This document shows positions 13,750 through 32,512 of a DNA stretch of 32,913 nt, one piece after another (position 1 is the first letter of the stretch; each line of letters begins with the position of its first letter). Made by a program: the position numbers and the translations under genes. Under the pieces are notes generated by a model. It made no database searches, was not told where the DNA came from, and saw nothing but the letters and a program-made list of their open reading frames with translations. This stretch comes from Actinotalea ferrariae. Its GTDB lineage: Bacteria > Actinomycetota > Actinomycetes > Actinomycetales > Cellulomonadaceae. Where the stretch lies: NCBI RefSeq assembly GCF_019733465.1, contig NZ_JACVQL010000082.1:1-32913 (forward strand). The letters run 5' to 3'.

Positions 13750-13911
13750 TACCGCCTGTCGTATCTCTCGCAGCGACTCGGCTCCGCCTTCTAGCTGCTC
13801 GGCTCACCTCGAGCGGTGGGGGAGTGGGGTCACTGCCTGGCCGTCGGCTGCGCCGCCGGCTGGTTGTCGTCGTCCGCTGCGCGGCCGCCGGCAGCTGAGA
13901 GGCGTTTTCTT

Positions 13912-14128
13912 CCCCTCCTGTCGCTCCATCATCGCCGGCGCTCCCTGCGCGCAAGCGGCTGCGCCGCCGGTCGCGGGCACGAGCCCGGCCTGCGGTCGCT
14001 GCGCTCCCTGAGCCCGGCCGAACTCGAGCCCGCGACCGCCCTGCGGGTTGTCGCTCCAGTCGCTCATGCCGGCGGTGATTACGGCGCCAGGAGGGGGCGA
14101 AAAACGGTCGGCACCAGCAGACCACCCA
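13912..14128 (+). repeat. structured non-coding repeat, copy A
   Basis: This copy is a non-coding stretch shared with 17558-17780 and placed just upstream of the ParB-like gene. It opens with CCCCTCCTG (13912-13920) and later has CAGGAGGGG (14088-14096), which are complementary. Inside them, CATCATCGCCGG pairs with CCGGCGGTGAT. A further perfect 10-bp stem, GGTCGCGGGC/GCCCGCGACC, sits at 13969-13978 and 14028-14037. The 3' part GCGAAAAACGGTCGGCACC is identical in both copies. It may be a cis-regulatory leader RNA, a small RNA, or a DNA site for replication or transfer. Position and orientation favour the leader reading, as inference. Confidence 0.65.
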
Positions 14129-14154
14129 GGCTCCTGGCAGGAGGGCGGCTCACC

Positions 14155-15651
14155 ATGACCGTCACCGAGTCCCAGACCACGGCCACCGAGGCCACCACCA
14201 CGACCGGGCAGATCGTCCAGGTCGACCCCCGCACCCTCGTCCTTGAGGTCAACGTCCGCGCCGACGCTGCCCTGACGCCGGAGTTCGTCGGGTCGATCAA
14301 GACCCACGGCGTGCTGACCCCGATCCTGGTCCAGCGCACCGCCGACGCCCTGCACGTGCGGGCCGGGCAGCGCCGCACCCTGGCCAGCATCGAGGCCGGG
14401 CTGACCGCGATCCCCGCCTACGTCGTGGACGGAGACACCGACGAGGCCCGCCGGATCATCGAGCAAATGGCCGAGAACGACCACCGCGCCGCCCTGGCCG
14501 ACCGCGACCGGGTCGCCGCGTTCCAGCAACTCTCCCTGCTGGGACTGTCGGCGGCGCAGATCGCCAAGCGCACCCACACCAAGAAGGACCACGTCACCAC
14601 CGCCCTGACCGTCGCAGGGTCCGAGGTCGCCGCAGCCGTCACGGCAAAGTACGACCTGACCCTCGACCAGGCCGCCGTGGTGGCGGAGTTCGACGAGAAC
14701 GCCGAGGCCGTCAAGGCGCTCACGGTCGCCGCCGTGGACGAGCCCGACCAGTTCGCGCACGTCGCGCAGCGCCTGCGCGACGACCGGGACGAGGCGCGGG
14801 TCGTCGCCGACCTGACCGCGACGCTGACCGAGGCCGGGACCCCGGTGATCGACCGCCCGTCCTACGACGACAAGACGATCAAGCAGGTGCGGGAGTTGGC
14901 CACGCTCGACGGGGACGAGCGGACCCCGCTGACCGAGGAGACGCACGCCGAGTGCCCCGGCCGGGCGGCGTGGATCAGCACGTCCTCGTGGGACGGCGTG
15001 CGGGCCGTCCACGTCTGCACCGACCCCAAGGGCAACGGCCACGTCGACCGGTACGCCTACAGCGGCGGCACCGAGCGGCAGGCCGGTCCGATGACCGAGG
15101 AGCAGAAGGCCGAGCGGCGCGCGCTCATCGCCAACAACAAGGCGTGGAAGTCCGCCGAGACGGTCCGCCGCGAGTGGCTGACCGGGTTCGCGGCCCGCAA
15201 GACCGCCCCGAAGGACGCCCCGACGTTCCTCGCCGCCCGGCTGGTCGCCGGGACGCACCGGCTGGACAAGGCGTCCACGCAGACCCGACACCGCCTCGCG
15301 CGGACCCTGCTGGGCCTGCCCGAGCACGTCGGCTACGGCGCACCGGACCCGCTGGCCGACCTGGTCCAGGCCGCGACCCCGGCCCGCGCACAGCACATCG
15401 CCCTGATCGTGCTGCTGGCCGCGATCGAGGACGGCACCGGCACCCACACCTGGCGCAACGTCAGCGCCGAGGACCGCGCGTACTTCACCGCCCTCGCCGC
15501 GTGGGGCTACAGCCTGTCCGAGGTCGAGGCCCTGGCCACCGTCGCACCCACCTACGCCGTCCCCGTCGAAGACGAGGCCGAGAGCGAGGCCTACGACGCC
15601 GCCGACGACAGCGAGGGCCACGACCCCGAGGGCTACGACGACGGCGAGTGA
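14155..15651 (+). CDS. ParB/Spo0J-family N-terminal domain protein
   Basis: A 498-residue protein. Residues 20-115 are a ParB N-terminal (CTPase-type) domain with G-Q-R-R (71-74) and E-N-D-H-R (107-111). A helix-turn-helix (L-S-A-A-Q-I-A-K-R-T, about 131-152) follows. The C-terminal 350 residues are alpha-helical with W and C features (E-C-P-G-R-A-A-W) and an acidic tail. It is much longer than a chromosomal ParB (about 300) and resembles the ParB-like proteins of actinobacterial ICEs and plasmids, whose role may be in regulation rather than segregation. The frame extends upstream, but ATG 14155 with GGAGG about 10 bases before it is the sensible start. It is independent of the parAB pair. 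It follows copy A of the structured repeat and precedes a double hairpin. Confidence 0.82.
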   Translation: MTVTESQTTATEATTTTGQIVQVDPRTLVLEVNVRADAALTPEFVGSIKTHGVLTPILVQRTADALHVRAGQRRTLASIEAGLTAIPAYVVDGDTDEARRIIEQMAENDHRAALADRDRVAAFQQLSLLGLSAAQIAKRTHTKKDHVTTALTVAGSEVAAAVTAKYDLTLDQAAVVAEFDENAEAVKALTVAAVDEPDQFAHVAQRLRDDRDEARVVADLTATLTEAGTPVIDRPSYDDKTIKQVRELATLDGDERTPLTEETHAECPGRAAWISTSSWDGVRAVHVCTDPKGNGHVDRYAYSGGTERQAGPMTEEQKAERRALIANNKAWKSAETVRREWLTGFAARKTAPKDAPTFLAARLVAGTHRLDKASTQTRHRLARTLLGLPEHVGYGAPDPLADLVQAATPARAQHIALIVLLAAIEDGTGTHTWRNVSAEDRAYFTALAAWGYSLSEVEALATVAPTYAVPVEDEAESEAYDAADDSEGHDPEGYDDGE

Positions 15652-15658
15652 TCACCCG

Positions 15659-15734
15659 CCTGGCCGGACCTACGGGTCCGGCCAGGCCGGTCGCCGGCTG
15701 GCGTGGGGGGCCGGCATCGAGCCGGCCCCCCACG
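15659..15734. terminator. double hairpin with ATCGA loop (first copy)
   Basis: Two perfect hairpins stand in tandem. The first is a 12-bp stem around loop TACG (15659-15670, 15675-15686). The second is a 14-bp stem, CGTGGGGGGCCGGC, around loop ATCGA (15702-15715, 15721-15734). The same two-part design, including the GCCGGC-proximal ATCGA loop, recurs at 17047-17127. It begins 7 bp after the stop, consistent with termination. The 444-bp gap 15652-16095 contains no gene; the rest of it holds the 25-bp inverted repeat. Confidence 0.7.
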
Positions 15735-15886
15735 GCGAGGGCCGCTGCCCCCACACCCCCAACTGACGACGTCCTCGCGTGGTCGCTGCGCGGCCCGGTG
15801 CCCCCTGGGCGCTGCGCGCCTGGCCGCGCCGCCGGGCACGGGGCTGGGGACACGTCGGTCTCACCTGGCCGGTAGCACCCCTGCCC

Positions 15887-15997
15887 CTCCAAGCAAGCCC
15901 ACCCCCACCGCAGCTCGCGTAGGTGGTCGGGGACGGTGCTCCGCACCAAGGAGCTCGAGCCGGGGGAGTGGGGCGGTGGGGGTGGGCTTGCTTGGAG
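15887..15997. repeat. perfect 25-bp inverted repeat with 61-nt folded loop
   Basis: The 25-bp arms at 15887-15911 and 15973-15997 (beginning CTCCAAGCAAGCCC) are exact reverse complements. The 61-nt interior has its own short hairpin, GGTGC-TCC-GCACC. It lies about 100 bp before the gene at 16096. A hairpin this strong could be a protein-recognition site for single-strand replication or transfer, or an RNA leader. The sequence alone does not decide. Confidence 0.7.
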
Positions 15998-16095
15998 CCT
16001 CTGCGACCGGGGTGCTGCCTCGCGCCTGCCGGTGAGGCCCGAAAGACATCGGGCGCTCACCGGCCAGACCACCAGGCACCGAAGGAGCCAAGACC

Positions 16096-17028
16096 ATGAC
16101 CACCAGCACCCGCCGCCCCGCCCGTACCGCTCGCGCCCCGTACCAGGTCGGGGACCACGTCTCGGCGCTCTACCTCGACCCCGCCCGGGGGACGTGCCTG
16201 GCCCGCGCGGCCCGCGTGGTCGCGGTGCGGCGCACCGACGAGCGGGCCGAGTACCCGTGGACGATCACCTACCGCATCAGCGACGACGTCGTGCGCGACG
16301 TGCGCGTGAACGCCGCCGGGGTCGACGCCAACCGCTACGTCGAGCCCTCGACGTCGGTCCTGACCCTCGAGGAGGCGCACACCCCGGCCGGGCAGGTCGC
16401 CACCGCGCTGGCCGAGTCCCTGCGCCGCGCCCGGGTCGCCGGTGCCCTAGCGACCACGACCGGCGGGAGCAACGTCGCGGTGGTCATCACCTGGCCGTCC
16501 GGCAACGACCGGATCGTGATCGGCGTCGACGTCGAGGACGGGTCGCCGGTGTTCTACGTCGCCGCGTACGAGGACCGTGAGCACGAAGCCCCCGGGCACG
16601 AGCACACCGCTCGCAGCATCCCCGCCGTGGTCACCGAGGTCGTGCGGCTGCTCGCGACCTACACCCAGAACGCGGCCGCCGAGCAGGACGGCCCGCCGTG
16701 GACCGCCCCGGACGGACTGACGCTCACCCTGCACCACACCGACGGCACCACCACCACGGCGCCGGTCGTGGCGCTGGTCGACCGGGACGACGTCGCCGGG
16801 ACCGTCCGCGTCCAGACGATGACCGCCGAGCCGGGGGAGGGGCTGGCCATCGTGCGGCGCACCTACCCGTTCTTCTTCGAGACCCGCACCACGGTCTACG
16901 CCGAGCCCGACACCCCCGAGCAGGTCGGGACCGGCCGGTGGAAGTTCAACGGGGCCACCGTCACCGGCCACGAGCCCGTCACCGGCATCGCCGGACCGAT
17001 CCGGCTGCACGACCGTGACGAGCGGTGA
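16096..17028 (+). CDS. hypothetical protein of the element backbone
   Basis: A 310-residue soluble protein not recognised as a family. The N-terminal third has a strand-rich segment (Y-Q-V-G-D-H-V-S-A-L-Y-L, then W-T-I-T-Y-R-I) that reads like a small beta-barrel. The middle (about 95-190) has helices and strands (V-A-V-V-I-T-W-P-S-G-N-D-R-I-V-I-G-V). The C-terminal part is again strand-rich. There are no transmembrane segments or signal peptide. ATG 16096 has GAAGGAG upstream. It sits between the 25-bp inverted repeat and a second double hairpin, so it is transcribed alone. A possible DNA- or transcript-associated function is not supported by any motif I can name. Confidence 0.65.
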   Translation: MTTSTRRPARTARAPYQVGDHVSALYLDPARGTCLARAARVVAVRRTDERAEYPWTITYRISDDVVRDVRVNAAGVDANRYVEPSTSVLTLEEAHTPAGQVATALAESLRRARVAGALATTTGGSNVAVVITWPSGNDRIVIGVDVEDGSPVFYVAAYEDREHEAPGHEHTARSIPAVVTEVVRLLATYTQNAAAEQDGPPWTAPDGLTLTLHHTDGTTTTAPVVALVDRDDVAGTVRVQTMTAEPGEGLAIVRRTYPFFFETRTTVYAEPDTPEQVGTGRWKFNGATVTGHEPVTGIAGPIRLHDRDER

Positions 17029-17046
17029 GGCAGCGACCGGGGTCGC

Positions 17047-17127
17047 GCCGGACCCTGCGGGGTCCGGCCGCCGGGTCCGGGGGGCCGGCGGGGCGCGTCG
17101 CGCCGGCATCGAGCCGGCGCGACGCGC
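17047..17127. terminator. double hairpin with ATCGA loop (second copy)
   Basis: GCCGGACCC-TGCG-GGGTCCGGC (17047-17068) is followed by a 15-bp perfect stem around loop ATCGA (17093-17107, 17113-17127). It lies between the convergent ends of the plus-strand gene ending at 17028 and the minus-strand gene ending at 17132, a good bidirectional terminator position. Confidence 0.7.
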
Positions 17128-17131
17128 GAGC

Positions 17132-17362
17132 TCAGCCGGGGATGTTGCGGGGATCGTTACCCGGCTCGACGGTGTCCTTGGCCCGGACCTTGCCGTCGCG
17201 GCCGTGGATGCTGACCTCACCGCCGCCGGCGTTGCCGACGATCTCCTTCGCCCGAGCGATCGCCTCGGCCTGGGTGTCGGTGTGAGCCGACGCGCGCTTG
17301 CCGGCACCGGTCACGTCCCAGCCGCCGCCGGGGTTGGGCACGACGTTCCTGTCAGCCGCCAT
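17132..17362 (-). CDS. DUF2188-like small protein
   Basis: A 76-residue protein with the DUF2188 pattern: N-V-V-P-N-P-G-G-G-W-D-V near the start, Q-A-E-A-I-A-R-A-K-E-I in the middle, then G-G-E-V-S-I-H-G-R-D-G-K-V-R strands. DUF2188 proteins are small, widespread and of unknown function. A longer in-frame reading upstream is unlikely. ATG 17362 has GAGGAGGG about 7 bases upstream. It is one of the few minus-strand genes in this block and ends 5 bp from the double hairpin. Confidence 0.75.
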   Translation of the reverse strand: MAADRNVVPNPGGGWDVTGAGKRASAHTDTQAEAIARAKEIVGNAGGGEVSIHGRDGKVRAKDTVEPGNDPRNIPG

Positions 17363-17557
17363 CAGTGGGCCCTCCTCGCGTTCGGGCGCGAGATCGGGGC
17401 ATCCCGCGCGCACGTGTCCAGCGTGGCAGAGCACACCGAGCTGGGCTCGGCGGCGGGGGACTGGCCGTCCCCCGCACCCCCGGCTGCGCCACGCGACGGA
17501 GCTCGCGGCGGCGGACGGTCCCTACGGGACCGGCTGCACAAGCACTCGTCTCTCTTT

Positions 17558-17780
17558 CCCCTCCTGGCTTTCCATCATCGCCGGCGCGGCCTACGCGCAA
17601 GCCCGGCCTACGGCCGGGCCGCCTCGGTCGACGAGCCCGACCTGCGTTCGCTGCGCTCACTGAGCCCGGCCGAGCTCGCCTTCCTCGCCGCCCTACGGGT
17701 TGACGCTCCACCCGCTCATGCCGGCGGTGATTCACAGCGCCAGGAGGGGGCGAAAAACGGTCGGCACCGCAGACCACCCA
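17558..17780 (+). repeat. structured non-coding repeat, copy B
   Basis: This is the second copy of the element at 13912-14128, ending 27 bp before the start of the DUF6573-like gene. The outer stem CCCCTCCTG (17558-17566) / CAGGAGGGG (17741-17749) and the ATCATCGCCGG / CCGGCGGTGAT pair are kept. The middle diverges (a CCCGGCC-TAC-GGCCGGG hairpin replaces the copy A stem). The 3' 60 bases are nearly identical to copy A. No gene was seen in the 445 bp from 17363 to 17807 apart from this element. Confidence 0.65.
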
Positions 17781-17807: not shown

Positions 17808-18209
17808 GTGGACCTCACCGAGTTCTTCGGACCCGTCATCCACGCCTACACCCGCGCCCAGGCCATCGCCGACGGCGCCCTCATCGACGTCACCCCCACC
17901 GCCCGCGAAGCAGGGTTCGTCCACCCCGTCGCCCTGACCGCGGCCGCGTGGGCCGAGACCGTCGCCTGGACCCGTGAGAACGACGAGTACCAGGACGAGG
18001 CGGGGCGGCTGTGGGACGTCCTAACCATGGCCCGCGTCACCATCCGAGGCGCTGGCACCACCGACACCGACCGCGTCGAGTTCCGCGTGCTGCGCATCCC
18101 CAACACACCCCGGGCCACCCGCCCCCGGCTGACCAGCCTCGTGATCCACATCGGCCCCGGCGACGACGCCGAGCCCGTCCTGACCGTCATGACCTCCACC
18201 GAGGACTGA
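17808..18209 (+). CDS. DUF6573-like protein
   Basis: A protein of 133 residues with the start F-F-G-P-V-I-H-A-Y-T-R-A-Q-A-I-A-D-G, then I-D-V-T-P-T-A-R-E-A-G-F. This is the pattern I recall for DUF6573 proteins common on plasmids, phages and ICEs. Function is unknown. The C-terminal half is strand-rich (V-E-F-R-V-L-R-I, then L-T-S-L-V-I-H-I-G-P-G-D-D). GTG 17808 has AAAGGGGA about 6 bases upstream; an upstream extension would run into the repeat element. It is preceded by copy B of the non-coding repeat and followed by a hairpin. Confidence 0.75.
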   Translation: MDLTEFFGPVIHAYTRAQAIADGALIDVTPTAREAGFVHPVALTAAAWAETVAWTRENDEYQDEAGRLWDVLTMARVTIRGAGTTDTDRVEFRVLRIPNTPRATRPRLTSLVIHIGPGDDAEPVLTVMTSTED

Positions 18210-20776: not shown

Positions 20777-21116
20777 CGGTCGACGACGTCGCGCTCGAGG
20801 TCCGCTGCGCGAAGAACTGCGAGCGGTGCAACCGGCAAGCCACCGCCCGCGCCGGCGGCCGCAAGGGCTGGGGCCTGCCCGAAGGCATGACTGACGCCGA
20901 GATCAGCGTCGCGCTGAAGCTCGGGCACGAACGCGGCATCGCCGGCATCACCCAGACCGAGCTCGTGCTGCTCGACCAGCTGCGGACGCTCACCGAGGCC
21001 CGGATGCGCGACGTCGTGGACGAGCTGCGCGCGCAGGACGCTCGTGGGCGGATGTCGGCCGGCTGCTCGGGGTGACGAAGCAGGCCGCGCACCTGCGCTA
21101 CGGCAAGAAGGCTTGA
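20773..21116 (+). pseudogene. HTH-containing small protein with C-terminal frameshift
   Basis: GTG 20773 (GTGA overlap) gives a protein with C-A-K-N-C-E-R-C (about 12-19). It then has D-A-E-I-S-V-A-L-K-L-G-H-E-R-G-I and a helical region ending in D-E-L-R-A-Q-D-A-R, and stops at 21075 in this frame. The -1 frame after about 21047 continues W-A-D-V-G-R-L-L-G-V-T-K-Q-A-A-H-L-R-Y-G-K-K-A to TGA 21114-21116, the classic L-G-V-S-K-Q-A-A-H-x-R-Y-G HTH ending of small actinobacterial DNA-binding proteins. So the intact gene would be about 114 residues and one base is missing near the GGG at 21048-21050. Confidence 0.65.
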
Positions 21117-21238
21117 CGTCCACGGCGCTCACGTTCCCTGCGCCCTCCACTACGCCCTTGGGCGCTCGGCGCGACGTTGCGCGTCGTCAGAGACACGTCG
21201 GTCCAACATCGCGCCGTTCGGCCCGGGAGGCGGGCCTG

Positions 21239-22963
21239 GTGAGCGACACTGCGACGGTGAGCACTGCCGAGCACGTCGACACGGACGCCCTGAGGAAGGC
21301 GAGGGGGGCGTTCTTCACCCCGCCGGAGGTCGCCGCCTACGTGGCCCGCTGGGCTGTGCGGAGCGCAGCAGACCGCGTGCTCGAACCGTCGTGTGGTGAG
21401 GCCGCGTTCCTGCTTGCCGCGCACGAGCGCGTCCAGACACTTCCGGGGTCGGGGCCCGCACGGCTTGATGGCGTCGAGCTGCACGCGGCATCGGCACGCG
21501 CCGCGCGCGCTGTGCTCCGTGCCGCGGGCTCGTCGCCGCGCGTTCGCGTGAGCGACTTCTTCGCCGTGGAGCCGGACCCCTCGTACGACGCTGTGATCGG
21601 AAATCCCCCGTACGTGCGCTACCAGGACTTCGCTGGCGCAGACCGGGCGGCATCACGACGCGCGGCCCTGCGCGCGGGCGTCGCCCTGACGGGCCTGGCC
21701 TCGTCGTGGGCGGCGTTCACCGTGCACTCCGCGCTGTTCCTCAAGCCCGGTGGCCGGCTCGGCCTCGTTCTGCCGGCCGAGCTGCTGTCGGTGAACTACG
21801 CCGCCCAGGTCCGCGAGTTCCTGATGCGACGCTTCGCCCGTGTCCGGCTCGTCCTGTTCACCGAGCGGGTGTTCCCCGGCGTACTTGAGGACGTCGTGCT
21901 CCTGCTCGCAGAGGGCATCGGAGGAACCGATCACTGCGAACTGCTCCAGGTTCAGGACGCTGACGCGCTGGCCGAGCTCGACCCCGAGACCGCCGCCGTC
22001 TGGACGCCTGCCTCGACGAGCGGGAAGTGGACCTCAGCCCTCCTGCCGGCCGCCAGCGCCGCGGCGTACGCGGCCGCCACCACCGGCGCGAGCTTCACGA
22101 CCCTGCACAGCTGGGGTGAGACGACGCTGGGGATGGTGACCGGCGCGAACAAGTTCTTCACCCTGTCGCCCGCCCAGGCTGCGGCACTCGGCCTGGCCGA
22201 CGCCGAACTGCTCCCCTTGAGTCCGCCCGGCAGCCGGCACCTACGCGGCCTGTCGTTCACCGCGCACATGCGCGCCGAACTCGGCCGCGAGGGAGCCGCC
22301 ACCCTGCTGTTCCGACCGGCCGGAGAGCCGAGCGCCGCAGCCCGCGCCTACATCCAGCGAGGCGAGCAGCAGGGCGTCGACACCGCCTACAAGTGCCGTG
22401 TGCGCACCCCGTGGTGGCGCGTGCCGCTGGTCGCACCTGCCGACCTGCTGCTGACGTACATGAACGCCGACACCCCGCGCCTGACGACGAACACCGCCGG
22501 CGCGCGGCACCTGAACAGCGTGCACGGGGTCTACCTGACCGACGAGCACCGCGAGCTCGGGCGTGAGCTGCTGCCGCTCGCGTCCCTGAACTCCGTCACG
22601 CTCGTCGGCGCGGAGATCGTCGGCCGCGCGTATGGCGGCGGGATGCTCAAGCTCGAGCCCCGCGAGGCTGACGACCTGCCCGTGCCGTCTCCGGCGGGTG
22701 TGCTGGCCTGCGCCGATGCGCTGCGGGCTGTGCGCCCCCGCGTCCGCGACCACCTGCGCGCGGGCCGGCTCTTGGACGCTGTGCGGCTTGTGGACCAGGT
22801 GGTCCTCCACGACGGCTCGGCCCTCGACGCAGCCGGAGTCAGCGACCTGGAACAGGCGTACGCCATGCTCGCCGCCCGCCGGCGAGCACGCGGCACGAGC
22901 GCCAAGGACCGCGTCTCACCGCACGCGATGGTGCTGGCCCGCCGCGACCTGGACCAGTCGTGA
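21239..22963 (+). CDS. N6-adenine DNA methyltransferase of a type II restriction-modification pair
   Basis: A 574-residue enzyme with G-A-F-F-T-P-P-E-V-A (23-32) and the SAM-binding motif I V-L-E-P-S-C-G-E-A-A-F-L (47-58). It also has the catalytic motif IV N-P-P-Y (122-125), typical of amino-methyltransferases making N6-methyladenine, and a C-terminal target-recognition region (about 330-540). This order (F-x-x-G-like motif, NPPY, TRD) fits gamma-class MTases of Eco57I/PstI-like systems. GTG 21239 follows GGGAGG by 8 bases. An in-frame upstream extension (to 21044) has no support and overlaps the HTH gene. The stop overlaps the putative endonuclease gene by 4 bases. It protects host DNA from the partner enzyme. 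Confidence 0.9.
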   Translation: MSDTATVSTAEHVDTDALRKARGAFFTPPEVAAYVARWAVRSAADRVLEPSCGEAAFLLAAHERVQTLPGSGPARLDGVELHAASARAARAVLRAAGSSPRVRVSDFFAVEPDPSYDAVIGNPPYVRYQDFAGADRAASRRAALRAGVALTGLASSWAAFTVHSALFLKPGGRLGLVLPAELLSVNYAAQVREFLMRRFARVRLVLFTERVFPGVLEDVVLLLAEGIGGTDHCELLQVQDADALAELDPETAAVWTPASTSGKWTSALLPAASAAAYAAATTGASFTTLHSWGETTLGMVTGANKFFTLSPAQAAALGLADAELLPLSPPGSRHLRGLSFTAHMRAELGREGAATLLFRPAGEPSAAARAYIQRGEQQGVDTAYKCRVRTPWWRVPLVAPADLLLTYMNADTPRLTTNTAGARHLNSVHGVYLTDEHRELGRELLPLASLNSVTLVGAEIVGRAYGGGMLKLEPREADDLPVPSPAGVLACADALRAVRPRVRDHLRAGRLLDAVRLVDQVVLHDGSALDAAGVSDLEQAYAMLAARRRARGTSAKDRVSPHAMVLARRDLDQS

Positions 22964-23889
22964 GCAAAGAGGACGCGTTCAGCGCGTTCGACGCCGAGCT
23001 GGCGGCCACGCCCACCAGCGACCCGTGGCTCCACGCCGAAGGCGAGGTCCCGCGGTACGGGCCCGACTACGACCTACTCGGCCGGCTGCTGACCTACCCG
23101 ACCCGCAGCGGCAGCGTGTCCGAGTCCGGCCGGTTCGCCAAGGGCATCGATGCCTGGCTCGCGCACGAGCTGCGCCGGGCCGGCTTCCTCGTCGACGAGG
23201 TGTGGCCGCGCGCCACCCGGCCTCGTGTGTTGCCGCGGGACGTCGTGCTCTTCGTCGACAAGCTGCCCAAGGGCCTGGGCGAACAGGTCCGACCCCACCT
23301 CGAGCGCATCACGGCCGTCGCGCCGTCCGATGCCCGCGTCCTGGGCCGGGCCTACTACAAGCAGATCGACGTCTGCATCGCGCGGTGGGACCGCGGACCG
23401 GAGCTGCTGCTGAGCACCAAGGCGCAGGTCTCCTCCTTCGGCAAGAACCTGCCTAACCGGTTCGAGGAGGCCTACGGCGACGCCGCCAATCTGCGCGGCC
23501 GCTACCCGCTCGCAGCCACCGGGTTCTTCTTCCTCCAGCGCGACACGATCCTCACCACCGAGAAGGAGGCGTGGGAGCGGACGAAGGACATGATGAGCAA
23601 GCTGCGCGACACCGACGGCCGGGGCGGCTACACGGCCACCGGGCTAGCCCTCGTCCACTGGGACGACGACGTGCCGCCAGAGGAGCGCGTCGTCACCGTG
23701 AACGTCGACGACGTGCCGTCGGCACTGCGGCCCGACCAGTTCCTCGACGCGATGATCCGCCAGGTGCTCGACGTCACCCCCGTCGTGCAGCACCCACGAG
23801 TGCGAGAGCTGCGCGAGCGTCGCGAGCTCCCGGTGCCGGAGCCGCGAGGCACCACGGACGACACCGAGGAGACTGGGACGCTCCTGTAG
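22960..23889 (+). CDS. candidate type II restriction endonuclease
   Basis: A 309-residue protein, GTG-coupled to the methyltransferase. The centre holds Y-Y-K-Q-I-D-V-C-I (132-140) and, twelve residues on, L-L-L-S-T-K-A-Q (149-156). The D-(14)-S-T-K spacing resembles a PD-(D/E)XK nuclease core in which the second acidic residue is Ser. A conserved-looking S-S-F-G-K-N-L-P-N-R-F-E-E-A-Y-G-D-A follows. The pairing with a DNA methyltransferase, the size (PstI is similar) and the coupling support a restriction enzyme. The atypical S-T-K and the lack of a named family make this a prediction. The Asp at 137 and Lys at 154 are the proposed catalytic residues. Confidence 0.65.
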   Translation: MSKEDAFSAFDAELAATPTSDPWLHAEGEVPRYGPDYDLLGRLLTYPTRSGSVSESGRFAKGIDAWLAHELRRAGFLVDEVWPRATRPRVLPRDVVLFVDKLPKGLGEQVRPHLERITAVAPSDARVLGRAYYKQIDVCIARWDRGPELLLSTKAQVSSFGKNLPNRFEEAYGDAANLRGRYPLAATGFFFLQRDTILTTEKEAWERTKDMMSKLRDTDGRGGYTATGLALVHWDDDVPPEERVVTVNVDDVPSALRPDQFLDAMIRQVLDVTPVVQHPRVRELRERRELPVPEPRGTTDDTEETGTLL

Positions 23890-25387: not shown

Positions 25388-25806
25388 GCGATGCCTCCTT
25401 GCCGAGGCACCAACGTACGCCCCGTCCGCCCCGACCTGGACGGAGAGCCGTCGACCCTCGTGGACACCAGCCCGCAGCAGTCGCCAAGCTGAGGGAGAGC
25501 GCGCTCGTCACTGACCGTCTACGGAATACCGCCATTGACCACGCCAAGCCACAGCGATCGCCGCCCCGGCGCAGCTGTCCCGCCTGGGGATCCTCCACTG
25601 GGACACAGTCGTCGTCCGCCCGTCGGGTAGCTGTGACTTTCGCCGGTAGATGGCGGGCTTCTGCCAAGGCTGAGTGGTCGGTGCAGGCCGGCGGTTCGGC
25701 TCCGGGTGGTGGCTGCGGCCGCACGCGGCCGCGCGCCCTGGTCCAGGAGTTCGGCATTGTGCTCGGACCCCAGTCCACGATCGTCGCCTGACCCGGCAGG
25801 CACGAC
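25388..25806. other. gene-free stretch holding direct repeat copy 1
   Basis: No convincing gene was found in this 419-bp stretch. It contains a 43-bp block (25586-25628, beginning GGGGATCCTCCACTGGGACA) that is 40/43 identical to 27381-27423. In one frame the block encodes L-G-I-L-H-W-D-T-V-V-V-R-P-S-G but stops soon after, suggesting a gene remnant. Confidence 0.5.
25586..25628 (+). repeat. 43-bp direct repeat, copy 1
   Basis: Matches 27381-27423 at 40 of 43 positions in the same orientation. Both copies keep one reading frame with I-L-H-W-D-T-V-V. The copies bracket the His-rich exporter and the gene at 26909-27274. Confidence 0.75.
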
Positions 25807-27274: not shown

Positions 27275-27645
27275 CGCCACAGGGTAATCGCGAAGCCCCG
27301 AACTGCCTGCGGCGGCCGATGCTGCTCGACATCGACCGTGGCCGCCTGACTCACGCACGTACAGCTCTGGCCGCCCGTTTGGGGATCCTCCACTGGGACA
27401 CCGTCGTCGCCCGCCCGCCGGGTCGCCGCCAAGCATGGATGTCGTTTGGCCGGCGTGACGCGAAGTCCCGCAAGACCCGACCGCGAAAATGCCCGGTGAA
27501 GGGGCCTAAGCGGGACACGCTGACGCGGTGAGGCCGGGGGCGGTGCTTCGTGAGTCAAGCTCACCGGCGGCAGCGCCCACGGGGTGGCGCGGGTGCCCGG
27601 CCTCCTGGGCCGAAGCGCGCTCGATGAGCGGGTGACGCCGGGCGC
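27275..27645. other. gene-free stretch holding direct repeat copy 2
   Basis: No convincing gene is seen in these 371 bp. A 70-codon plus-strand frame (27319-27531) contains R-L-G-I-L-H-W-D-T-V-V-A-R-P-P-G but has no ribosome-binding site and ends in Arg/Lys-rich, unlikely sequence. The 43-bp repeat copy at 27381-27423 lies in it. Confidence 0.5.
27381..27423 (+). repeat. 43-bp direct repeat, copy 2
   Basis: Differs from copy 1 (25586-25628) at three positions. The gene cluster between the copies (exporter plus 26909-27274) could be a duplicated-flank insertion, or both copies could be remnants of one gene family. Confidence 0.75.
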
Positions 27646-31684: not shown

Positions 31685-32512
31685 GTGCCGGAGGAGCAGA
31701 CGTGCCCGCAAACAGGATTGAGGCTCGTCCCAGCCCGAGGTGAAGTCACCTTCCGAGTTGTCAGGACCTCGGTGGATCCTCTTCAGGCGCGCGAGCGCTC
31801 GGTGACCCCGGTGGGCTGGGTCGAGACGCTCGACGACCTTGGTGGCGGCACTGTCGCACCCTGGAACGAGAATCCGTCCTGGAGCCGATGGGACACACCC
31901 GGTCGAACGCTGTATGTGGGGGAGACCATTCGGTCGGCCTACGCAGAGGTCCTTCAGCACTTCCGCCGCCCGCGGGCCGGCGACCCGGTGGCGCAGCTAG
32001 CAGAACTGCTCGGCATGACGCCGGAGGAGTACCTCGCAGCCGTGGATCAGGAGCAGGCTCCCCTTGGCTGCATGCCGCGCGGTCAGTTCCCCGCCGGGTG
32101 GCGGCACGACCGCGCCCTGTATCGCGTACGCCTTCCTCGAGGCGGCTGGTGGATCGACGTCGAGCACGGGGACTCACTGACCGCGTTGGATTCCGCGCCG
32201 GGATTGAGCCAGGTCGGCTTCACCGAGCCGCTGACCAGGGCTCATGTCTTGGGTGACGAGCGGCGCATCACTGTGGCGTTGGCCGAACACATGCGGTCTC
32301 TTCGCCTCTTCGACGGCTCTGAGGCTCTCGGCGTGACGTGGAACTCGAAACTGGGATACGGCAAAAACTGGGCGTTCTGGATGCGTCGGCTCGACGATGG
32401 CCTCGAGCCCGCCGCCGACGATCCGGCGCTGGTCGGTCATGGCGCTGAGATCGACGCTCATGACCCTGACCTGACGTATGTAGCGGACAGGTTCGGAATC
32501 CACTTGCACTGA
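31685..32512 (+). CDS. RES-domain toxin
   Basis: A 275-residue toxin with the RES pattern: F-R-V-V-R (23-27), then R-T-L-Y-V-G-E-T (74-81) and S-A-Y-A-E-V-L (84-90). Much later comes A-L-G-V-T-W-N-S-K-L-G-Y-G, the RES-like serine motif with Asn-Ser-Lys in place of the usual Tyr-Pro-Ser-Arg. RES toxins degrade NAD+ and stop growth (known for MbcT of Mycobacterium tuberculosis). GTG 31685 has AAGGAG 5 bases upstream. The pairing with the DUF2384-like gene supports the call. It is longer than MbcT (about 180), with an insertion between motifs. Confidence 0.78.
   Translation: MPEEQTCPQTGLRLVPARGEVTFRVVRTSVDPLQARERSVTPVGWVETLDDLGGGTVAPWNENPSWSRWDTPGRTLYVGETIRSAYAEVLQHFRRPRAGDPVAQLAELLGMTPEEYLAAVDQEQAPLGCMPRGQFPAGWRHDRALYRVRLPRGGWWIDVEHGDSLTALDSAPGLSQVGFTEPLTRAHVLGDERRITVALAEHMRSLRLFDGSEALGVTWNSKLGYGKNWAFWMRRLDDGLEPAADDPALVGHGAEIDAHDPDLTYVADRFGIHLH

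Follow-up and report, generated by a model that had tools for sequence, protein, structure and literature searches.

Two copies of an element of ~215 nucleotides (nt) on a contig of a draft genome of Actinotalea ferrariae are quite probably promoters that are active only as single-stranded DNA, working like Frpo and ssi. Single-stranded promoters are known from plasmids of Escherichia coli and its relatives. The contig (NZ_JACVQL010000082.1) is 32.9 kb long and, at its full length of 32,913 nt, is referred to below as the window. The two copies precede a ParB-like gene and a DUF6573 gene, and an original prediction made from the sequence had described them as a duplicated, structured non-coding element, either a cis-regulatory RNA or a repeated binding site. 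Our reading draws on an observed sequence family, its covariation, the conservation of promoter hexamers, a mismatch in the predicted folds, the gene context, and the agreement between element strand and relaxase strand. In window coordinates, the relevant features are as follows.

13903–14115, minus strand (the folding strand, template of the ParB-like gene): element copy 1; cmsearch score of 169.6 bits for 13903–14109, the copy being itself a row of the model, with the shared tail reaching 14115
13912–13920, minus strand: 3′ arm of helix P1, copy 1, pairing with 14088–14096; covarying helix 1
13928–13933, minus strand: −10-like hexamer GATGAT, copy 1; the −11 A (minus strand of 13932) lies opposite a C (minus strand of 14075), a mismatch in the fold
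13949–13954, minus strand: −35-like hexamer TTGCGC, copy 1, with a 15-nt spacer to the −10
14069–14079, minus strand: 5′ (template) arm of helix P2, copy 1, pairing with 13928–13938; covarying helix 2
14084–14088, plus strand: putative transcription start region, copy 1, placed by promoter geometry ~7 nt beyond the −10 across the hairpin
14088–14111, plus strand: P1 template arm and common, putative initial transcribed tract CAGGAGGGGGCGAAAAACGGTCGG, copy 1
14155–15651, plus strand: ParB_N-domain gene, the first after copy 1 (Pfam ParB_N, E 8.7e-8)
17549–17768, minus strand: element copy 2; cmsearch score of 158.5 bits for 17549–17762, this copy too being a row of the model, with the shared tail reaching 17768
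17558–17566, minus strand: 3′ arm of helix P1, copy 2, pairing with 17741–17749
17574–17579, minus strand: −10-like hexamer GATGAT, copy 2; the −11 A (minus strand of 17578) is unpaired in the predicted fold
17595–17600, minus strand: −35-like hexamer TTGCGC, copy 2, with a 15-nt spacer
17721–17731, minus strand: 5′ (template) arm of helix P2, copy 2, pairing with 17574–17584
17741–17764, plus strand: P1 template arm and common, putative initial transcribed tract, copy 2
17808–18209, plus strand: DUF6573 gene, the first after copy 2 (Pfam DUF6573, E 3.9e-22)

The duplication is real: the copies are 82% identical (BLAST E 1.8e-56), and both contain the complementary tracts of the outer stem (CCCCTCCTG at 13912–13920 and 17558–17566, CAGGAGGGG at 14088–14096 and 17741–17749) and of the second stem (ATCATCGCCGG at 13928–13938 and 17574–17584, CCGGCGGTGAT at 14069–14079 and 17721–17731), together with the common 3′ tract GCGAAAAACGGTCGG (14097–14111 and 17750–17764). 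The covariance-model edges (13903–14109 and 17549–17762) begin 9 bases ahead of the starts first assigned. Each copy is separated by 39 nt from its downstream gene, and Pfam supports the ParB-like and DUF6573-like assignments that had been made for these two same-strand genes. Both copies fold better than their 40 dinucleotide shuffles, with template-strand z-scores of −5.8 (copy 1) and −4.1 (copy 2). Rfam release 15 returned no match at a family gathering score in the window, although one sub-threshold microRNA match overlaps copy 1 (21.7 bits where the cut-off is 100; E 0.28), which agrees with the earlier view that the motif is undescribed.

The fold of the element is supported by covariation. 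The alignment A2, written in the strand complementary to the genes, comprises 26 of 27 listed copies (the near twin L054:24237 was omitted) and is the basis of the covariance model R1. It has 48 consensus pairs, 31 of which show changes on both sides, as would be expected from the compensatory changes that had been proposed as a check, and 93.5% of its cells are paired. There were 121 double-change cells, where shuffles averaged 30.5. In 500 shuffles, the observed values of the five covariation measures were never reached, and sliding the pairing partners lowered the paired fraction from 93.5% to 38–44%. In Glutamicibacter (row L053), several positions of the outer stem P1 carry other bases and are still paired. 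Searches with R1, also foreseen in the original prediction, found copies outside the training set; the model further scores the opposite strand of many copies weakly, as it would for a near-palindrome. The 74 model hits were reduced to 54 unique ones by removing opposite-strand overlaps of better hits and repeated sequences, and to 48 full-length copies (>150 nt) by dropping 6 short partial hits. A coding signal was not found among these 48, which span all three lengths modulo 3 and in which each frame, counted from the 3′ end, is open in at most 30 copies, so the non-coding assignment stands.

A sigma-A-like promoter (TTGCGC, 15–17 nt, NANNNT) lies in the 3′ arm of the hairpin in 43 of the 48 full-length copies and in 44 of the 54 unique hits, with a −10 that is typically GATGAT and variants on the folding strand. 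The same pattern was detected in 3.4% of shuffled tails and in none of the 48 copies on the gene-directed sense strand. The −35 starts with TTG in 41 of the 43, and the spacer measures 16 nt in 30 copies, 15 in 10, and 17 in 3. All 26 A2 rows and 17 of the 22 other copies carry the pattern (27/27 and 16/21 when the twin is counted with the rows), and the 3′-arm residues that are invariant across A2 include the TT of the −35 as well as A−11, A−8, and T−7. Divergent plasmid copies come nearer to the consensus (TTGAAC-16-TACGCT, TTGCGC-16-TATGCT, and TTGGCC-16-TATCCT). A long stem-loop holding the −35 and −10 in its arms, on the presumed transferred strand, is indicated by prediction and by covariation.

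The −11 A is the base that is flipped out in promoter melting. In 37 of the 43 predicted folds this A is unpaired, lying opposite C in 20, G in 9, and A in 4, with no defined partner in the remaining 4. Its mean unpaired probability over the 43 copies is 0.88, compared to 0.13, 0.21, 0.19, 0.33, and 0.20 at positions −12, −10, −9, −8, and −7. Further along, positions −6 to −4 have mean unpaired probabilities of 0.63–0.71, and the start region is duplex again. The gene-directed reading could be parsed in 25 of the 48 copies, where the spacer is 19–21 nt in 24 and 25 nt in one, and −11 is G, T, or C; because of this non-A at −11 and the long spacer, the gene-directed reading is expected to be silent in duplex DNA.

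The complementary (template) strand was predicted to be the more stable one in 26 of 28 copies with DNA parameters and in 25 of 28 with RNA parameters. The mean energy gap between template and sense strands was 9.0 kcal/mol, compared to 3.9 in shuffles, with 24 of 26 copies beyond their own shuffle mean. Relative to shuffles, mean z-scores were −7.3 for the template strand and −5.6 for the sense strand, and the consensus energy with wobbles allowed was −58 versus −37.

In annotated plasmids, the genes found first after full-length hits were the following.

DUF6573: L051, L054, L056
ParB: L051, L052, L054, L055, L071
DUF4192: L051, L052, L054
ArdC: L053, L057, and a partial hit in L059
Glutaredoxin/NrdH: L055, L056, L057, L058, L060, L062, L070
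DUF3846: L059
Unnamed genes: L052, three in L055, L056, L062

Genes following elements include those for anti-restriction (ArdC), SSB, and ParB-like proteins. For annotated full-length copies other than those of Dietzia, the distance from element to same-strand start codon is 12–69 nt, as counted by hand. Several copies can occur on one plasmid, with 5 model hits on L055 (Curtobacterium). The strand of the element matched that of relaxase/mobC in 16 of 16 cases where such a gene was found, comprising all 11 annotated plasmids that list one and all 5 draft contigs inspected (G014, G127, G049, G092, and G021); this count omits the Antribacter contig G020 and three records in which the stretch or table examined holds no relaxase. 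The transfer genes of one of these plasmids, MST3P, are of the VirB4/PrgI type and differ from those of the other ten; the element is therefore not tied to a single backbone. According to the accessible portion of its text, a 2024 Nature study (PMC11541004) places the relaxase typically in the lagging region and finds that, in its set, the anti-defence genes of the leading region are on the transferred strand. The layout of F is alike, with leading genes, including anti-restriction, SSB, and a ParB-family gene, on the traM strand.

We propose the following mechanism. In conjugation, the strand that is template for the downstream gene would be the first to enter the recipient, in single-stranded form. 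The element on it would fold into a long imperfect hairpin, in which the 3′ arm would take the place of the non-template strand of a sigma-A promoter and the 5′ arm that of the template. The mismatch would free the −11 A in most copies, and the small loop after the −10 would mimic the melted bubble, so that host RNA polymerase could start and read towards the origin of transfer (oriT). ParB-like, DUF6573, ArdC, DUF4192, or glutaredoxin/SSB proteins would then be made before the second strand, and the gene-directed reading would be silent once the DNA is duplex. If true, protective proteins could be made as soon as a plasmid arrives in a new actinobacterial cell.

Several observations weigh against this reading. 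The single-stranded state, RNA polymerase binding, transcription, duplex silence, and the identity of the transferred strand are all steps that we infer, the last from relaxase-gene orientation with no oriT located, and in pRE117-1 and G092 an element and the relaxase gene are ~30 kb apart. Covariation was counted on the same alignment that had yielded the structure, and the shuffles ignore relatedness, so that their counts are not probabilities; many copies are closely related, and counts across them are not independent. The promoter search pattern itself requires A at −11 and T at −7, which leaves the invariance within A2 as the unconditioned support. Five of the 48 full-length copies are without the pattern (L062:16325, L073, L055:26635, and both L075 hits), L073 having G at −11 and L062:16325 a spacer of 19 nt. 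The hexamers would count as weak in E. coli, and a sigma-70 scan of two window regions returned no sites. The −11 A is paired in 6 of the 43 predicted folds. T stands at −12 in 4 of these 6 and in 5 copies in all, which may mean that a stronger −10 can dispense with the mismatch. Finally, the consensus energies of the two strands are equal when wobbles are forbidden (−34.0 and −34.7), and a strand-neutral wobble count (7 versus 7) indicates no strand preference. The template-strand preference is partly a matter of composition, its excess coming from G·T wobbles, and the strand argument therefore rests on wobble-inclusive energies together with the promoter.

Three other explanations were weighed, and all were ranked below the single-stranded promoter. 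Of these, a structured 5′ leader in the mRNA of the downstream gene, acting like a riboswitch or as an attenuator, fares best, although we regard it as unlikely. P1 and P2 would pair on the sense strand too, where the commonest −11 mismatch, A·C, becomes a G·U wobble, and the sense strand itself folds better than its shuffles and equals the template strand once wobbles are forbidden. However, the opposite strand folds better by both z-score and wobble-inclusive energy, a leader RNA leaves the invariant −35 and −10 bases on that strand unexplained, and there is no Rfam match. No E. coli-type promoter was detected on either strand of two upstream regions, although such scans miss many actinobacterial promoters. 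Flank identity (0.33 upstream versus 0.36 downstream) does not separate the leader-RNA and promoter readings. Of the original suggestion of a cis-regulatory RNA or repeated binding site, the cis-acting, structured, and repeated character is borne out by covariation and by placement before same-strand genes. The term “RNA” is probably wrong, since the complementary strand folds better, has the conserved hexamers, and is the presumed transferred strand; a structured promoter of single-stranded DNA is a better reading of the element than a leader RNA or a duplex binding site.

Slightly less plausible still is a single-strand initiation site that would prime complementary-strand synthesis in the recipient, instead of or besides making mRNA. 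It would use the same presumed strand, and a role in transcription as well as in primer RNA synthesis has been ascribed to Frpo of F (Masai and Arai 1997, by its title as cited in PMC11541004). For priming, however, one site would suffice, and several copies, each shortly before a same-strand start codon, fit a promoter better. A duplex element, whether an antisense promoter that reads outwards from the gene, a cruciform, or a protein-binding site, is very improbable: the hexamers do lie on the antisense strand of the duplex with normal spacing, and could form a weak divergent promoter, but the covarying partner arm, the mismatch and bubble, and the fixed relaxase orientation would be left unexplained.

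The range of these single-stranded promoter candidates, as known from 39 order genomes, 200 family genomes, a contig pattern scan, and plasmid BLAST, extends well beyond the window. A contig of the same genus (G014:C12) carries three copies, the third preceding a DUF4192 gene. The pattern search yielded matches in 8 of the 200 family genomes (the two-mismatch match in G002 being doubtful). Of the 39 sampled order genomes, 4 had a match, the genome of the window included; an exact-pattern scan of genome contigs identified 13 stretches, and BLAST of four queries against plasmids identified 9, 43, 31, and 66 records, many of the matches being partial. Relatives of the element lie on plasmids of several Micrococcales genera. 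Complete plasmids with copies come from Cellulosimicrobium, Paraoerskovia, Xylanimonas, Curtobacterium, Cnuibacter, Microbacterium, Herbiconiux, Glutamicibacter, Miniimonas, and Arthrobacter, and weakly from Dietzia. Viral contigs gave no exact-pattern match, and the element was not found in phage records by BLAST. Matches in a Clostridia metagenome-assembled genome (MAG; L043) and a Phycisphaerales MAG (L050) seem to reflect chance agreement with the 20-base search pattern and entered only the first alignment. L044, labelled a Mycobacterium MAG, has true copies and figured in early analyses; one copy is nearly identical to those of Cellulosimicrobium, and L044 was left out of A2 as possibly mis-binned.

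Other features were observed in the window and on related plasmids. A perfect 25-nt inverted repeat (15887–15911 and 15973–15997, 61 nt apart) lies downstream of the ParB-like gene, and an 18-base core of one of its arms recurs in a same-genus contig (L022:10030). Positions 21044–23889 hold a gene for an Eco57I/N6-type methyltransferase (Pfam) and, after it, one with no Pfam match; the two may be a restriction-modification pair. Restriction-modification genes are also listed on pTL2A and pRE117-1. A RES-domain protein at 31685–32512 (Pfam E 1.5e-5) may be the toxin of a toxin-antitoxin pair, and two 53-nt copies with 89% identity are located at 25579–25631 and 27374–27426. On pNBRC108565a (L052), a transfer-gene stretch is listed twice, ~36.8 kb apart and with the same protein accessions, reflecting a duplication or an assembly artefact.

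The function proposed here is likely Frpo/ssi-like, in a phylum for which the searched literature holds no description of it. Two surveys, one of them PMC11541004, sought single-stranded promoters by similarity to five known sequences and to candidates derived alongside, as far as their accessible text describes, and the string “actinomyc” is absent from the accessible text of PMC11541004. No such element in actinobacteria appeared among the matches listed, i.e., titles and starts of abstracts on single-stranded promoters, leading regions, or DUF-named plasmid genes, with subscription literature mostly outside this scope. Both our elements and the Frpo′ and Frpo* candidates of PMC11541004 are predictions from secondary structure and from intergenic sequence of leading regions, the leading position of ours being presumed; unlike those candidates, ours were not obtained by BLAST to the five known sequences, nor, as for four islands, by canonical hexamers and an UP element, according to the available part of that study. 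The actinobacterial elements would be expected to escape both of these filters. Family-level similarity to Frpo of F was not found, the covariance model giving an E no better than 0.27 at either Frpo and the best BLAST E being 0.056 (F leading region; ColIb-P9 lay outside the comparison), and descent from Frpo/ssi is not shown. A 21-column gapped match at the stem base between F and a Curtobacterium copy scored 30, compared to a maximum of 28 in 300 letter-shuffled elements and 29 for another F window. A stem-base tract TACC(A)GGAGGGAACAAAA, of borderline significance, is common to L055:23202–23406 (Curtobacterium) and to Frpo2 and Frpo1 of F (L076 near 12544 and 17934).

We are evenly divided as to whether these elements form a separate, probably convergent Actinomycetota class of single-stranded DNA promoter, which would pre-form the open complex through the unpaired −11 A, have a GC-rich and weak −10 working only in single-stranded form, and use several copies to run a whole anti-restriction and establishment programme in the recipient. 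Single base changes would make this idea of an open-complex mimic testable, and the covariance model would help to locate leading regions in actinobacteria, along with unknown establishment genes (DUF6573, DUF4192, ParB-like). Frpo1 and Frpo2 of F are stem-loops with a −10 and a −35, needed for early leading-gene expression in recipients, according to the accessible portion of PMC9849209. Like Frpo1 and Frpo2 of F and ssi of ColIb-P9, as available portions of PMC9849209 and PMC11541004 describe them, the actinobacterial elements occur in more than one copy in the presumed leading region, place a −35-like and a −10-like hexamer in a predicted long single-strand hairpin, and lie upstream of ssb and other establishment genes. 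Unlike Frpo and ssi, they belong to another phylum, their hexamers are farther from TTGACA/TATAAT, and they have a defined −11 mismatch. A covarying family at this phylum-level distance from Frpo and ssi would suggest that the single-stranded promoter strategy is general.

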